IMG/VR virus record: IMGVR_UViG_3300048547_000321
Location: 1 to 39,920 of that record
Strand: one strand, 5' to 3'
Source: a virus
DNA length: 39,920 bases
Under the pieces are notes generated by a model, which had not been told where the DNA came from, made no database searches, and saw only the letters and a list, made by a program, of their open reading frames with translations. Below are positions 2,967 to 39,048 of this stretch, one piece after another (the stretch's first letter is position 1; each line of letters starts with the position of its first letter). A program made the translations under genes and the position numbers.

Positions 2967-3167
2967 TTAGCGAATCGCTAGCCATCTATCTTTATTTTGA
3001 TTTACGAACTGCTCCAAGTGTAATAGGTCATCATGATATAAAGGGTTATCTGTATGTAACCAAAGAACGCCATCGAATCTTTTTGAAGCATCAGTCCTGA
3101 ACGTAACAGCTACTGCGCAGCTTTCCCCTTTTTCATTATCCATCTCAAGTATAAGAGAATATTTCAT
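2967..3167 (-). CDS. Small hypothetical protein (66 aa)
   Basis: I do not recognise this 66-aa protein. It starts MKYSLILEMDNEKGES and has alternating beta-like hydrophobic stretches, and the C-terminal part is richer in charged residues. It has no membrane segment or metal motif. It lies seven bases upstream of the RuvC-like gene and two bases downstream of the coiled-coil gene, in the packed replication operon. That tight spacing is the main reason to accept it as a gene. Confidence 0.6.
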   Translation of the reverse strand: MKYSLILEMDNEKGESCAVAVTFRTDASKRFDGVLWLHTDNPLYHDDLLHLEQFVNQNKDRWLAIR

Positions 3168-14247: not shown

Positions 14248-15246
14248 TTATTCTTGCCAAGAGTGATTTTTAACTACGTGCTCAATAACTTCTACAAGAG
14301 TTTGTTCTAGTTTGATTGGAGGAGTCCATCCAGCCTTATATATCTTCGAACTGTCAAGTGCATACCTGCGATCATGACCAGGTCTAGTTTTATGAAAATC
14401 TTCAAACTTGTAATGTAGTTTTTCTCCCATCAGGCTCGCAATTCTTTTAGCGAGTTGCAAGTTATCTATTTCTTCTAGCCCTGCGATGTTGAACTTGGTA
14501 GGACGCTCGCATTCGTATGATTTGTATATGTTGAAATCTATTTTGTTATACATGAAAAGCCAAGCATCTACGAGGTTACGGCAATCAATATACATCCTAG
14601 AACCAATTCTATCAGGCGATCCATGAACTAAAAGCTCTTCACCCTTCAGCACCCTGCTCACTATTTTAGGCAGATATTTTTCAGGATCTTGTTTAGTGCC
14701 AATCATATTCATGCAATGAGTGACCGCGATCGGAGTTCCGTATGTTCTCCAGTATGTGAAGCATAGAGCATCTTGAGCAGCCTTAGAAGCAGCGTATGGG
14801 TTAGATGGGCAGGTAATGTCCCACTCTATATGACTATATCCATCCTGAGCAGCTCCAAAGACTTCATCTGTAGAGCAATGGATGAATTTTTCCAGCGTAT
14901 CCAGCCCTCTAGCGTATTCAAGTATATTGCCAATTAGTCTAGTATTTGATTCCCAAACGTATATAGGGTCACTTATAGATGTGTCTACGTGAGATATAGA
15001 CGCACAGTTTAGTATGTAGTGGACATCCCCCAATCTCATTTTCGTACGATGCGATATAGGAGCGTTAAGATCATGGCAAACGATGCTATATCGGTTAGAA
15101 TCTATTGATTTAGAGATTCTTTCAGCATCACCCATGTGACGAAAAGAGTCTAGCCCTATGATTTTCCAGTCAGTTTTTTCTAACAGGTATTCAACAGCGT
15201 GAGAGCCTACGAAACCAGCACTTCCAGTTATGAGTATAGTTTTCAT
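14248..15246 (-). CDS. NAD-dependent sugar-nucleotide 4,6-dehydratase/epimerase (RmlB-like)
   Basis: This 332-aa protein is an extended short-chain dehydrogenase. GSAGFVG (8-14) binds NAD, STDE (125-128) is the signature of nucleotide-sugar 4,6-dehydratases, and Y151-AAS-K155 is the catalytic pair. The likely product is a 4-keto-6-deoxy sugar nucleotide, though an epimerase or decarboxylase of the same family is possible. It shares one base with the glycosyltransferase gene upstream. The pair may supply and attach a sugar to a virion protein, host surface sugar or DNA. Confidence 0.8.
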   Translation of the reverse strand: MKTILITGSAGFVGSHAVEYLLEKTDWKIIGLDSFRHMGDAERISKSIDSNRYSIVCHDLNAPISHRTKMRLGDVHYILNCASISHVDTSISDPIYVWESNTRLIGNILEYARGLDTLEKFIHCSTDEVFGAAQDGYSHIEWDITCPSNPYAASKAAQDALCFTYWRTYGTPIAVTHCMNMIGTKQDPEKYLPKIVSRVLKGEELLVHGSPDRIGSRMYIDCRNLVDAWLFMYNKIDFNIYKSYECERPTKFNIAGLEEIDNLQLAKRIASLMGEKLHYKFEDFHKTRPGHDRRYALDSSKIYKAGWTPPIKLEQTLVEVIEHVVKNHSWQE

Positions 15247-34483: not shown

Positions 34484-34771
34484 CTACACCTCATCAATTT
34501 TTCCACCGCATTGAGAATAACCTGCGATGTCTACCCAATTATCTCTTTTAGGCTTATGAACATTTCTAGCTATCTTCATTAGTATCATCATGTGAGCTAC
34601 ATCTCTAGCTGAAATTGATATATCAACTCCATTATTAGTTTTAAAATACCACTCCCAAGAAGCACCTATTTCTGATAAGTTTTTTTTAGGACTTCCATAA
34701 TCCTGTTGACGATCAGCACCCTGTATTCGCTGAGCCTCCTGACAAATAGATTCATTTTTATTTTTTTTCAT
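34484..34771 (-). CDS. DUF6378-like phage protein (95 aa)
   Basis: This 95-aa protein contains the pattern EAQRIQGADRQQDYGSP (near 12-28) and RDVAHMMILMKIARNVHKPKRDNWVDIAGY (56-85), which I associate with DUF6378 and related all-alpha phage proteins. MazG-like nucleotide hydrolases have a similar helical build, but their catalytic acidic cluster is not evident. The ATG begins four bases after the 3' end of the mini tmRNA-like element, so processing of that RNA would affect this gene's leader. Confidence 0.65.
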   Translation of the reverse strand: MKKNKNESICQEAQRIQGADRQQDYGSPKKNLSEIGASWEWYFKTNNGVDISISARDVAHMMILMKIARNVHKPKRDNWVDIAGYSQCGGKIDEV

Positions 34772-34775
34772 GATG

Positions 34776-34839
34776 TGGAGATGTGGGGAATTGAACCCCA
34801 GTCCTAGACAGAAGTCAAGTCGATCACCATTGCATCCCC
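34776..34839 (-). ncRNA. tmRNA-like mini RNA: alanine-type tRNA-like domain without mRNA domain
   Basis: On the minus strand GGGGATG (34839-34833) pairs with CATCTCC (34783-34777) as a seven-base acceptor stem with G3-U70 and discriminator A73, the main alanyl-tRNA synthetase identity. The T arm is TGGGG, TTCAATT, CCCCA (34800-34784). The 5' linker CAATGGTGATCGAC matches the tmRNA pattern (GG, then UUCGAC) in length and sequence, and GGAC precedes the T arm as in tmRNA. In place of the anticodon arm is a small hairpin CTTGA/TCTAG with loop CTTCTG. There is no reading frame tag and no pseudoknot. The 3' CCA is not encoded (CAT follows). A degenerate tRNA or attachment-site fragment is possible. 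Confidence 0.6.
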
Positions 34840-34847
34840 AAATTAAA

Positions 34848-34919
34848 TCTCCGATGGGTGGATAAAAGGGATATACTAAAACCCACCTACATCTTAACAG
34901 AAGGACTACCCATCGGAGA
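34848..34919 (-). other. 12-bp perfect hairpin spanning the terS stop codon, upstream of the mini RNA
   Basis: TCTCCGATGGGT (terS end, 34919-34908) and ACCCATCGGAGA (34859-34848) are exact reverse complements around a 48-base loop. An alternative inner stem GATG/GGTGG with CCACC/CATC uses part of the same 3' arm, so two conformations can compete. The loop holds TTATCCAC, an 8-of-9 match to a DnaA box. The whole lies between terS and the tmRNA-like element, with the 3' arm eight bases from it. Confidence 0.6.
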
Positions 34920-35538
34920 AAATCTTTTCAATCTCAGAAAAGACTCTATCGTCAAGTCCATTGCGAATAGCAAGTTCAGCTATCTGCGGATTCTCAGGAT
35001 TTGCCATTGTGGCGATTTCTCTAGGTAGTCCATCTAGAAGTCTGCGTAGAGGTGTAAGTAGCTTAATAACTTTCTCAGCAGCCTCCGATTCGGGTATAAG
35101 TGACTCTGCCTTCATCTTTAGTTCCAATTCCCTGAGGGATGCCACAGCAGCTTCTTTCCTGCCCTGCTCTTCAGTTAGTTTTTTACGCAAGTCATCCATA
35201 CTTGCACTTGAACCATGTTTGGATTTACGATTCTTTTGAAGCAGGCGAATGTAGTTTTTTATAGATTGCCAAGATTTGTATCTGCCATTGGATACTTTTA
35301 ATATTACCTGATCTTTAGCTAGATTTGCGATTTGTTGAGCCGTGACTCCAAATAGATCAACTAGCTCAGAAGTTTTAATTATTGAATCATCACCTAATCT
35401 GTCAGGAGAAACATCCTGACTTTGTGATTCTAAAAAAGAAGATTCTTGAGCTGTTAGCGATTTTCCATCTTTAACCTTAGCTACAATGTTAGAGAGTAGC
35501 TTCTTATTTACATTATCGAGTAGGGATTGATCTATCAT
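34906..35538 (-). CDS. Terminase small subunit, Nu1-like (210 aa)
   Basis: This 210-aa protein has an N-terminal helical region, then a winged HTH near 54-85 (TSELVDLFGVTAQQIANLAKD followed by a short strand and YKSW), as in lambda Nu1-type proteins. The rest is coiled-coil (DDLRKKLTEEQGRKEAAVASL) and a C-terminal helical domain. It would recognise the cos region and load the gpA-type large subunit. The stop codon is part of a strong hairpin. It overlaps the glycosyltransferase gene by four bases. Confidence 0.75.
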   Translation of the reverse strand: MIDQSLLDNVNKKLLSNIVAKVKDGKSLTAQESSFLESQSQDVSPDRLGDDSIIKTSELVDLFGVTAQQIANLAKDQVILKVSNGRYKSWQSIKNYIRLLQKNRKSKHGSSASMDDLRKKLTEEQGRKEAAVASLRELELKMKAESLIPESEAAEKVIKLLTPLRRLLDGLPREIATMANPENPQIAELAIRNGLDDRVFSEIEKIFSDG

Positions 35539-36353: not shown

Positions 36354-37033
36354 TTTAGATTTTTATTTGTATGATTAAGCCAAGTGCCAGCCTTGAAACA
36401 TTCCACGTAATAATCATTTCTGTCTATTTCTTTCCATGCTTCATTTTTCCACTTAGTCCAAACAACATGATCAGGAATTGTATCTGGTATGTATTTTTTT
36501 AAACATCGAGCCAAGAATTTAGGACCAGTAGTTTGTAAAACAAATCTAGCCTTCCAAACATCATATATTTCCATTGATGCTTTTCTTTCATAGTTATATA
36601 CACAATCTCGCATGGTTAGTTCCCAAAACTTGTATCCCTTAGTGCTACCTATGAAATCATTAACAACAGATTCAGTAGTGTTAGGATTGAGATGTTTTAT
36701 ATTGTGAAGTAAAATTCTATGGCGAGTTAGAGGATTGAAACTTTTTATGCAATGCATATCTAAGTCCATGTAAAAGCCACCCTCATGATGTAATATGCAG
36801 AACCTTATGAAATCTATTTTCTGTATATCGTATCTAAAGTTATGATAGAACTTGTCGTATTGAGGGTAATGATTTTTTACAAGTGATGAACATTCATCTT
36901 CAGTCCATAACTTATGTTCGAAATCAGGATTAACCTTTTTTGCTATTTTTATGCTGTTACTGAATAATTCAATTTTACTTACATCTTTATTTTGCCAGTT
37001 GAAGTATATTTGATGTATTTTTTTAGGTATCAT
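36350..37033 (-). CDS. GT32-type glycosyltransferase with DXD motif (227 aa)
   Basis: This 227-aa protein has the GT32 (Gly_transf_sug, OCH1-like) pattern: IPKKIHQIYFNW (2-13), then HHEGGFYMDLDM (near 82-93), which carries the DLD nucleotide-sugar metal motif. It overlaps the dioxygenase gene and the TAGT-like gene by four bases each. With two different glycosyltransferases, the modification may be a disaccharide, or each could act on its own acceptor. The donor sugar is unknown. Confidence 0.75.
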   Translation of the reverse strand: MIPKKIHQIYFNWQNKDVSKIELFSNSIKIAKKVNPDFEHKLWTEDECSSLVKNHYPQYDKFYHNFRYDIQKIDFIRFCILHHEGGFYMDLDMHCIKSFNPLTRHRILLHNIKHLNPNTTESVVNDFIGSTKGYKFWELTMRDCVYNYERKASMEIYDVWKARFVLQTTGPKFLARCLKKYIPDTIPDHVVWTKWKNEAWKEIDRNDYYVECFKAGTWLNHTNKNLK

Positions 37034-37824
37034 TTTAGTTTATCTAGTTCAATTTGCCTAGCCCTGAGCAATTCATCATCTAAAGTTAAACATTTCCACA
37101 TACCTTTTAGGCTGTAATAAACGACTGAGAATCTGTAACCATCGTCTGAAGTAGGATTCATGGGACTAACTCCATGCATTATTTTTTGACCATCAAACAT
37201 GAACAGGGAGTTATGTTTTAATAGGAATCGAGCATTGATTTCAGGAACGCAAAGCCAACCACCCTCCATTTCCTCACGCAATACAAGCATACAGCTTAAA
37301 ACATCTTTGAAGTTACCTGCATCAAAGTGATATGATAGTGGATTGTTTTTATTTACAATGCCACTTGTGAAAAGTGAGTCAGGCATACGCCACTCATCTA
37401 CAACTTTGTCGAGCAGTTCCTTATGTTGATCGGCAGTATCAGGTGCAACTTTGAAATATCGTTTAGTTATTTCCGATGCTAGCCCTCTGAGCATAGCTTC
37501 AGCTTTAGGATTCTCACGAGCTAGGCTTGTCTGATTGCAAAAAGCACGTTGTCTACGCTCAAGTCTAGGTTGATATCCGAAAATTCTACTCGTAGTTACT
37601 AAACCTCCAGTCCTAGTAGTCTCAGAGTATTTCATTGTTTTGAGTTCATGAACCAAGTTATCAGTATCCATTCCGATCATGTCATAAACACAAACCAAAT
37701 TATCATTCTGATCGAATACCTTGCATGGCTCAGTTATTTCTAACAAACAGTCATCGGCAGATGCTCTACGTTTAACATATTTCTTATAGTTAATTTTTTT
37801 TCTATTAACTACCTGAATCTTCAT
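37030..37824 (-). CDS. TET/JBP-family 2-oxoglutarate/Fe(II) dioxygenase (264 aa)
   Basis: This 264-aa protein has the TET/JBP double-stranded beta-helix features. RTGGLVTTSRIFGYQPRL (71-88) and an LARENP segment (101-106) resemble phage TET/JBP proteins. The iron ligands are His166 and Asp168 in SYHFDAGN and His217 in HGVSP, and Arg231 in YRFSVVYYS would bind 2-oxoglutarate. It should hydroxylate the methyl group of thymine or of 5-methylcytosine in DNA. No DNA methyltransferase is present in the window, so a thymine substrate (JBP-like) is a reasonable guess. Four-base overlaps join it to the next genes. Confidence 0.75.
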   Translation of the reverse strand: MKIQVVNRKKINYKKYVKRRASADDCLLEITEPCKVFDQNDNLVCVYDMIGMDTDNLVHELKTMKYSETTRTGGLVTTSRIFGYQPRLERRQRAFCNQTSLARENPKAEAMLRGLASEITKRYFKVAPDTADQHKELLDKVVDEWRMPDSLFTSGIVNKNNPLSYHFDAGNFKDVLSCMLVLREEMEGGWLCVPEINARFLLKHNSLFMFDGQKIMHGVSPMNPTSDDGYRFSVVYYSLKGMWKCLTLDDELLRARQIELDKLK

Positions 37825-38434
37825 GATATGCTTTTAAAACTGAGTTATAAATTAGTTGAGAAGGGACTGTATCTTTATCATCGCAAATTTTAGTTATGAT
37901 ATTAGAGAAAACCTTATAATCATCCTCATCGTAAATTAGCTTAACAGTTTTGATTCCTGATTCATCCTCATCTATCTCAAACTCTACCTCACCGCCAAGA
38001 ACCATATCATCATGAAACTGACCTATGATTGCATCAAGCATAGCTTCATCGTATCCAGTATTGCCAACCTCACCGCCAAGTAAACTTATTCTCTCAATTA
38101 CATCGGCAAGAACTAAATCATCGATTTGAGACATTGCTGTTATTCTGTTATCAGCAATCATGTCAGCCATCTCATCAGTTAAGCTATCGTAATCTTGATA
38201 TTCGACTGGAACCTCATCCCATCTATTTGATTTTGCAGTTTCAAAAAGTAGTCTGCCTTTTACAATTGTAGCATTATCTCTAGAACTAACTACAATGCAG
38301 TTACGCCAACCATTTGCATTTATGATTTTAGTCAGCGTATCTATTTGAGATTTGCTATGTATGTATGGACTATGCTCATGAACCTTAAGTTCAGTCACCT
38401 TACGCAACTCAGTATGTGAACAATGTATTTTCAT
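37805..38434 (-). CDS. ParB-like protein 2, degenerate motif (209 aa)
   Basis: This 209-aa protein is a paralogue of the 205-aa protein upstream: both open MKIHC, then LRKVTELKVHEHSPYIHSK-type text and WRNCIVVSS against WRRPIVVSN. The canonical GHGRFQAA motif of ParB-like domains is replaced by VKGRLLFETA, while ADNRITA is kept. The usual ParB nuclease or CTP-binding site is thus altered. It probably aids targeting of the modification enzymes or lost activity. It overlaps the dioxygenase gene by 20 bases and the first paralogue by four. Confidence 0.65.
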   Translation of the reverse strand: MKIHCSHTELRKVTELKVHEHSPYIHSKSQIDTLTKIINANGWRNCIVVSSRDNATIVKGRLLFETAKSNRWDEVPVEYQDYDSLTDEMADMIADNRITAMSQIDDLVLADVIERISLLGGEVGNTGYDEAMLDAIIGQFHDDMVLGGEVEFEIDEDESGIKTVKLIYDEDDYKVFSNIITKICDDKDTVPSQLIYNSVLKAYHEDSGS

Positions 38435-39048
38435 GGGTGTAGGTTTTTAAGAATGGTTAAAATAGTCATACTAGGATTTTTGCAGTTGTAGATTTTTTGC
38501 AGACTTTCAATCATAGGAACGAGTTTGCTATGTTCCTCTAGTGTATAGTGAAGTATAAGAGATTTTTGACCTGCAGACTCCTTAGGATCAATATCAACTT
38601 CACGCTCAAGGACTAGATCGTTATTCTCAATTTCAATGCTATTGATTATTGATTCTACCTCACCCTCAGTATAGCCAGTTTCAAATTCATCTGTATCTAT
38701 TTTAGATAAGGCATCTTTTAGCTTATCCATATCTACGTCAATCAGTTCAGTAATTCGATTGTCTGCAACTAGGTCTTCAAGTTCAGCCTGCTCTGATTCG
38801 TATTCCTGTATATCGACTGGAACCGCTGCAAGATTGAGCAGCTGAGCAGCCTGAAATCTACCGTGACCTTTAATGATTACGTTTTTACCAGTTCGATTGC
38901 TGACTACGATAGGTCTACGCCAACCATGCTTTTTAATGATTTTTGCTAGTAGCTCAATTTGGCTATCAGGATGTGTATTGGGATTCTCAGGATGCTCCTG
39001 AATCTCACCAAGTTTTATTTCTTTTGAGTATGTGCAGTGTATTTTCAT
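38431..39048 (-). CDS. ParB-like protein 1 (205 aa)
   Basis: This 205-aa protein has the ParB/Srx-like N-terminal domain: HPENPNTHPDSQIELLAKII (near 18-37), WRRPIVVSNRTGKNVIIKGHGRFQAA (near 43-68) and LVADNRITEL (near 92-101). In phages such domains often sit with DNA-modifying enzymes and may bind or nick DNA. Here it is the first gene of the TET/JBP operon, starting after the gap with the cos-like sequence. The rest (100-205) is helical and acidic. No partition partner ParA exists here, so segregation is unlikely. Confidence 0.75.
   Translation of the reverse strand: MKIHCTYSKEIKLGEIQEHPENPNTHPDSQIELLAKIIKKHGWRRPIVVSNRTGKNVIIKGHGRFQAAQLLNLAAVPVDIQEYESEQAELEDLVADNRITELIDVDMDKLKDALSKIDTDEFETGYTEGEVESIINSIEIENNDLVLEREVDIDPKESAGQKSLILHYTLEEHSKLVPMIESLQKIYNCKNPSMTILTILKNLHP

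Follow-up and report, generated by a model that had tools for sequence, protein, structure and literature searches.

A tmRNA consisting of scarcely more than the TLD, encoded beside the small-terminase gene of a marine phage

The DNA analysed is a stretch of 39,920 nt from IMG/VR virus record IMGVR_UViG_3300048547_000321 (the window), which carries terminase, portal and head genes. It encodes a 64-nt RNA that is almost certainly a tmRNA reduced to the tRNA-like domain (TLD), a TLD-only tmRNA or mini-tmRNA, with a short hairpin where a bacterial tmRNA has helix P2 and the mRNA-like domain. As judged from sequence comparison, the same design is present in many unrelated phages and is selected for pairing and for the alanine identity pair. 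Positions of the RNA, its parts and its neighbours are given in Table 1.

Table 1. Features at the mini-tmRNA locus (positions are those of the window).
Feature	Position	Strand	Evidence or remark
Terminase small subunit gene, 5' neighbour	34906..35538	minus	PHROG 57, E 9e-18
Upstream structured RNA, three-way junction, ~80 nt	34845..34924	minus	Covariation; no Rfam match
TLD-only tmRNA (mini-tmRNA)	34776..34839	minus	Rfam RF00023 49.6 bits; model R1 80.8 bits; covariation
Acceptor stem 5' strand GGGGATG	34833..34839	minus	Helix 1; G3 of G3-U70 at 34837
D-loop-like linker GGTGATCGAC, tmRNA signature (GG...TCGAC)	34819..34828	minus	GG 5' of TCGAC in 102/106 matches listed, unforced
Short P2 hairpin CUUGAC UUCU GUCUAG	34804..34819	minus	Replaces tmRNA P2 and mRNA-like domain
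T arm TGGGG-TTCAATT-CCCCA (5+7+5)	34784..34800	minus	Helix 3, all cells paired
Acceptor stem 3' strand CATCTCC (holds U70)	34777..34783	minus	Helix 1 of the covariation count
DUF6378 gene, 3' neighbour	34484..34771	minus	Pfam PF19905, E 1.6e-25

On the minus strand, from 34839 to 34776, the element reads GGGGATG CAATGGTGATCGAC TTGACTTCTGTCTAGGAC TGGGG TTCAATT CCCCA CATCTCC A. All features named in the original prediction are present. The 7-bp acceptor stem GGGGAUG/CAUCUCC forms 7 of 7 pairs including G3-U70 and is followed by the discriminator A73, the 3' limit of the predicted mature RNA; the GG...ATCGAC linker, a tiny P2 hairpin, GGAC directly 5' of the T arm and the 5+7+5 T arm itself complete the molecule. 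The P2 hairpin has a single U-U mismatch in the window copy and is perfectly paired in the relatives L006, L036 and L005. The CCA end is not encoded in the window copy, in which CAT comes after A73. The thermodynamic fold is unremarkable (z -0.9) and taken alone gives no support; the proof of the element lies in homology and covariation.

A search of the whole window with Rfam at curated cut-offs gave exactly one match, to tmRNA (RF00023), at 34773-34839 on the minus strand, with an E value of 9e-17 and a score above the cut-off of 47 bits. Model ends 1 and 374 were both matched, and the middle ~300 model positions are absent from the mini-tmRNA. Both tmRNA ends are therefore present, as expected for the stand-alone TLD without an mRNA-like domain that had been proposed. 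At the homologous place in relatives L006 and L036 the same model scored 62.2 and 57.6 bits, respectively, also above the cut-off; the remaining close copies score under it. The mRNA-like domain, resume codon, tag frame and pseudoknots are absent, there being 16 bases between TCGAC and the AC before the T arm.

A permuted two-piece tmRNA, in which the acceptor piece lies 5' of the coding piece, was rejected, as model RF04321 gave 21.7 bits against a cut-off of 47 and the halves of the window copy are in standard order. A tRNA is likewise not supported: the element has neither an anticodon arm nor a D arm, ARAGORN called no tRNA or tmRNA in the window, and Rfam favours tmRNA within the clan that the two models share. 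For the element in relatives, ARAGORN produced nothing but a spurious tRNA-Ser call. The program also called full tmRNAs with an end at the mini form in four contigs (L065, L070, L113 and L149); the call in L065, the one inspected of the four, crosses coding-like sequence and is probably false. Standard tRNA and tmRNA finders overlook the mini-tmRNA, and for this reason the family has gone uncounted so far.

Relatives of the window, both close and distant, were collected by TerS and TerL searches of IMG/VR. Seven of them (L002, L004, L005, L006, L036, L037 and L038) contain the mini-tmRNA, either 3' of the small-terminase gene or at the corresponding position 5' of TerL. The same short form in several independent contigs excludes an assembly deletion. 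The sequence of the T arm changes with pairing kept, being TGGGG/CCCCA in the window, GGCAG/CTGCC in L006 and GCTGG/CCAGC in L036, and acceptor pair 5-68 is A-U or G-C. In an alignment of 13 sequences, 97% of cells are paired and 11 of 18 pairs have both sides changed; when the partners were slid by 1-3 columns, pairing fell to 48-59%. Compensatory changes occur in all three helices. In helix 1 (acceptor), GU is found at 3-70 in 13 of 13 aligned sequences; in helix 2 (P2), both sides changed in five of six pairs and the short class is 99% paired; in helix 3 (T arm), 100% of cells are paired and four of five pairs changed on both sides. Conservation and covariation of the stems in relatives, a point on which the original prediction could have failed, were thus found: both-side changes occupy 39 cells compared with 10.8 in shuffles, and 0 of 500 shuffles reached the observed covariation. 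Since pairing is kept amid sequence change to an extent above that in shuffles, the element is a structured RNA under selection.

The spread of the element was assessed with a pattern in which GGGG, TCGAC, TTC.A and CTCCA were fixed and the remainder was free, with at most 38 bases where a normal tmRNA has hundreds. The fixed positions are not usable as evidence, and the matches listed are a non-random sample whose counts are lower bounds. Viral contigs gave at least 120 matches; with the same pattern, 257 Gb of bacterial and archaeal genomes yielded only 19 stretches. The viral matches listed comprise 106 distinct sequences, which group into 43 clusters at 78% identity. Among these 106 listed sequences, the unforced T arm is fully paired in all (64% with shuffled partners), unforced acceptor pairs 5-6 are formed in 99.5% of cells (52% with shuffled partners), and P2, also unforced, is 95% paired (55% with shuffled partners). 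Further unforced tmRNA signatures are conserved in the same sample, namely GGAC in 94 of 106 and a purine at position 57 in 106 of 106, besides the GG of the linker (Table 1). CCA is encoded in about one third of the matches listed, and C74 is present in most.

A second scan placed no constraint on positions 3 and 70. G3-U70 was found in 109 of 110 well-folded matches listed, a set that also holds first-scan matches in which the pair was fixed; the real test is in the rows of the second scan, among which there was no clear exception but one A-U. Thus, the alanine identity pair, which the original prediction had singled out, is conserved beyond the needs of a generic tRNA-like fold.

The matches listed show a break in size. 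The short form, to which the window copy belongs, is 62-69 nt long and has a plain P2 hairpin. The long form is 73-85 nt (for example L115:6175-6254 and L054, among contigs L053-L171), and its P2 includes, besides an internal loop, another small hairpin, often AAAACCGCAYGCGG. The long class was misaligned by MAFFT, and covariation was therefore counted block by block in a script. The long form is also present in four cultured Streptomyces phages, LuckySocke, pSt2308, GiJojo and Shaeky, in which it is not annotated as such; the family is hence testable in cultured phages. The acceptors of LuckySocke and GiJojo, GGGTCTG/CAGATCC, fall outside the scanned pattern, and G3-U70 is kept nonetheless. 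Gene 44 of GiJojo (hypothetical protein, L216:599-841) overlaps the mini-tmRNA (601-681) and is perhaps miscalled.

Several other matches were rejected as mini forms. The BLAST matches in PegLeg, S-CRM01, DLP_6, Rb1, Tunturi_4 and Tunturi_5 represent the 3' ends of tmRNAs that are full, possibly permuted or unresolved, and the match in Vibrio VCPH is a real tRNA-Ala. In Tunturi_4 a gene for an RF-1 domain release factor (L218:218-565) lies directly 5' of the tmRNA-like 3' end, and the two possibly constitute a phage ribosome-rescue pair.

In the window the mini-tmRNA occupies a 134-nt gap between the small-terminase and DUF6378 genes and has the same direction as the late genes; the ATG of the DUF6378 gene starts 4 nt past A73. 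In L006 and L036 the DUF6378 gene is not beside the element, and the next ORF is 211 and 317 nt off, respectively. Across the family the neighbours are mixed and include genes for terminase, portal, head protease, lysin, helicase, single-stranded DNA binding protein and others; a tie to one particular neighbour gene was dropped as the neighbours are too varied. No tRNA genes lie within 1 kb at 113 of 129 loci, which together with the mixed neighbours fits an RNA acting in trans. No DNA match to the mini-tmRNA region was found among cultured phages, and the TerL of the window is only ~25% identical to that of cultured phages. Elsewhere in the window, both on the minus strand, a queuine tRNA-ribosyltransferase-like gene (37030-37824) lies beside two tandem ParB-like/methyltransferase-type genes (37805-39048), and a GDP-mannose dehydratase/epimerase-like gene (14248-15246) is found among genes 3' of the tape measure gene.

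A second structured RNA is situated between the small-terminase stop and the mini-tmRNA, just 3' of the small-terminase gene. It comprises P1 (the closing stem, 12 bp), P2 (5 bp) and P3 (3 bp), and its inner hairpins have the conserved loops UAUUAAGAYG and UUUAGUCGUGUUU. Compensatory changes were seen in 15 of 20 pairs, and the observed values were reached by no shuffle. Besides the window, 31 of the relatives searched have this RNA, and about two dozen of these 31 lack a mini-tmRNA. It gave no match in Rfam or among cultured phages. It is likely on the same transcript as the mini-tmRNA and independent of it, and may be a new RNA motif of the terminase region. In staphylococcal phages, structured RNAs derived from terminase genes activate a CBASS cyclase (cabRNA, PMC10686824), a parallel in location.

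In the TerL tree the mini-tmRNA occurs in two clades, one with the window, L006, L007 and L040, and the other with L036, L037 and L038, and it is absent throughout one sister clade of 19 rows. The sister of the window, L003, whose TerL is 96% identical, contains a decayed copy (L003:1953-2019) that scores 21.2 bits with model R1 and has a broken acceptor and T arm; the genes around this copy and the upstream structured RNA are intact. This distribution indicates that the element was inherited vertically and decayed at least once; in addition, it was either lost once from a whole clade or gained a second time. The decay in L003 and the sister clade without the mini-tmRNA further indicate that the element, useful as it is, is dispensable.

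Trans-translation is nearly universal in bacteria. AlaRS needs G3-U70 and A73, EF-Tu needs the acceptor and T arm, and SmpB needs the elbow in which the T loop meets the GG...UCGAC linker. All copies of the mini-tmRNA keep these determinants and have lost the tag code, resume codon and pseudoknots. The mini-tmRNA is probably a phage decoy RNA; SmpB, AlaRS, EF-Tu and stalled ribosomes would be the targets over which it competes with host tmRNA. In the phage copy of the TLD, the tag-coding region and pseudoknots are swapped for a short hairpin. The tRNA-processing enzymes of the host would release the mini-tmRNA from a late transcript of the phage; after CCA addition and charging with alanine, it would associate with SmpB and EF-Tu. 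Host tmRNA would then be outcompeted, either because SmpB is tied up or because stalled ribosomes are entered with no resume codon on offer, and fewer phage proteins and mRNAs would be tagged and decayed during infection.

A decoy had been among the functions first suggested, and it has a counterpart in published work, in which a TLD-only molecule is reported to inhibit tmRNA strongly in E. coli (PMC4131195; PMC11915505); the effect was shown there by expression and not in infection, and is described as independent of charging of the molecule (PMC4131195). The viral bias of the pattern matches is consistent with a decoy. As G3-U70 is near-invariant, charging seems to matter in nature, and entry into stalled ribosomes is therefore favoured over mere SmpB binding. 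Against a decoy, the extra inner hairpin of the long class is left unexplained, and the losses in the TerL tree point to a dispensable element. Taken together, the evidence suggests that viruses widely deploy an RNA of this type to counter ribosome rescue. A broader proposal stands at about even chances: phage RNAs of the message-less tmRNA type would form a large family, overlooked until now and built in two architectures, on which selection acts to keep alanine charging and SmpB binding, and phages in general would use them to turn off or redirect host trans-translation.

The near-invariant pair also keeps alive another reading, which is unlikely but the best placed of the alternatives, namely that the mini-tmRNA is an active rescue RNA without a tag. 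Charged with alanine, it would take the stalled nascent chain together with SmpB, the peptide would be freed later by another route, and ribosomes would be recycled untagged, much as has been suggested for mitochondrial tmRNAs that have no tag frame. The features for charging and entry are all kept, including G3-U70, an encoded CCA in part of the copies and C74 in most. A pure SmpB sponge would have no need of G3-U70, given the charging-independent inhibition reported in PMC4131195, and mitochondrial tmRNAs without a tag frame are conserved and, according to PMC11915505, thought to help. However, no release step is known for a molecule without a resume codon, and no partner release factor was seen beside the mini-tmRNA in the window.

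It is improbable that the element serves to process the late transcript, another function initially considered, with its tRNA-like fold marking cuts by RNase P and at the tRNA 3' end that split the transcript after the small-terminase gene. A tRNA-like fold used as a processing mark has a precedent in the mascRNA of MALAT1. The position in a gap of a co-directional operon, with the next ATG 4 nt on, agrees with this proposal, as does the match of the mini-tmRNA to the mascRNA model, which at 17.2 bits is below the cut-off of that model and reflects a general tRNA-like fold. However, the cutting enzymes require the tRNA-like fold and not G3-U70, the GG...TCGAC linker or P2, and the features specific to tmRNA are thus left unexplained. 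Furthermore, the downstream genes vary, as do the neighbours across the family, and L003 retains its genes though its mini-tmRNA is broken.

The element could also be what is left of a full phage or host tmRNA, decaying and with no present function. This reading would account for the broken copy in L003 and for the sister clade of 19; it is very improbable in view of pairing that is under selection across very divergent sequences and of a short layout that unrelated phages share.

Integration at ssrA is common among phages, which then carry the 3' end of this gene. BLAST matches of this type in the mycobacteriophages Milly (L173) and Validus (L177), near locus position 3000, were rejected as mini forms, being ~30 bp fragments of the ssrA 3' end beside tyrosine integrase genes, and are likely attP sites at the tmRNA gene. 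That the window element is such an ssrA-derived attachment site, as also suggested originally, or a capture remnant is scarcely credible, for it has both TLD halves, each of its helices shows compensatory changes, its place is in the terminase region, and no recombinase was found among the window ORFs scanned (all but the smallest).

With the one-piece bacterial tmRNA (RF00023) the decoy candidate shares the acceptor with G3-U70 and A73, the GG...UCGAC linker, P2, GGAC and the T arm; it differs in having no mRNA-like domain, tag frame or pseudoknots and in its length of 64 nt versus ~350. The alanine identity G3-U70 and A73 is common to tRNA-Ala, which unlike the mini-tmRNA has anticodon and D arms. 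Contrary to the initial view that no stand-alone element of this form had been described, such forms are published. The tmRNAs of jakobid mitochondria and of the plastids of Mallomonadaceae (chrysophytes; ~65 bp) are described as having kept the TLD and lost the tag code (PMC11915505), and in this they are like the phage form. They are, however, organellar and reductive, and a mitochondrial SmpB is reported to co-occur; the phage form is viral, and its host presumably has a full tmRNA of its own. The closest likeness is to the 'TLD only' tmRNA of mycobacteriophage DS6A (Mao et al. 2009, RNA Biol 6:355; cited in PMC4131195 and PMC11915505), which, by its published description, is also phage-encoded, scarcely more than the tmRNA TLD and without a tag reading frame. 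DS6A is the single case given in these sources and is an actinobacterial phage, whereas the present gene is from a marine phage, lies in the terminase region and has covariation support and many relatives. Thus, the TLD-only kind itself was already known, and what is new here is how broadly it occurs, its covariation, the near-invariance of the alanine identity pair and the existence of two structural forms.
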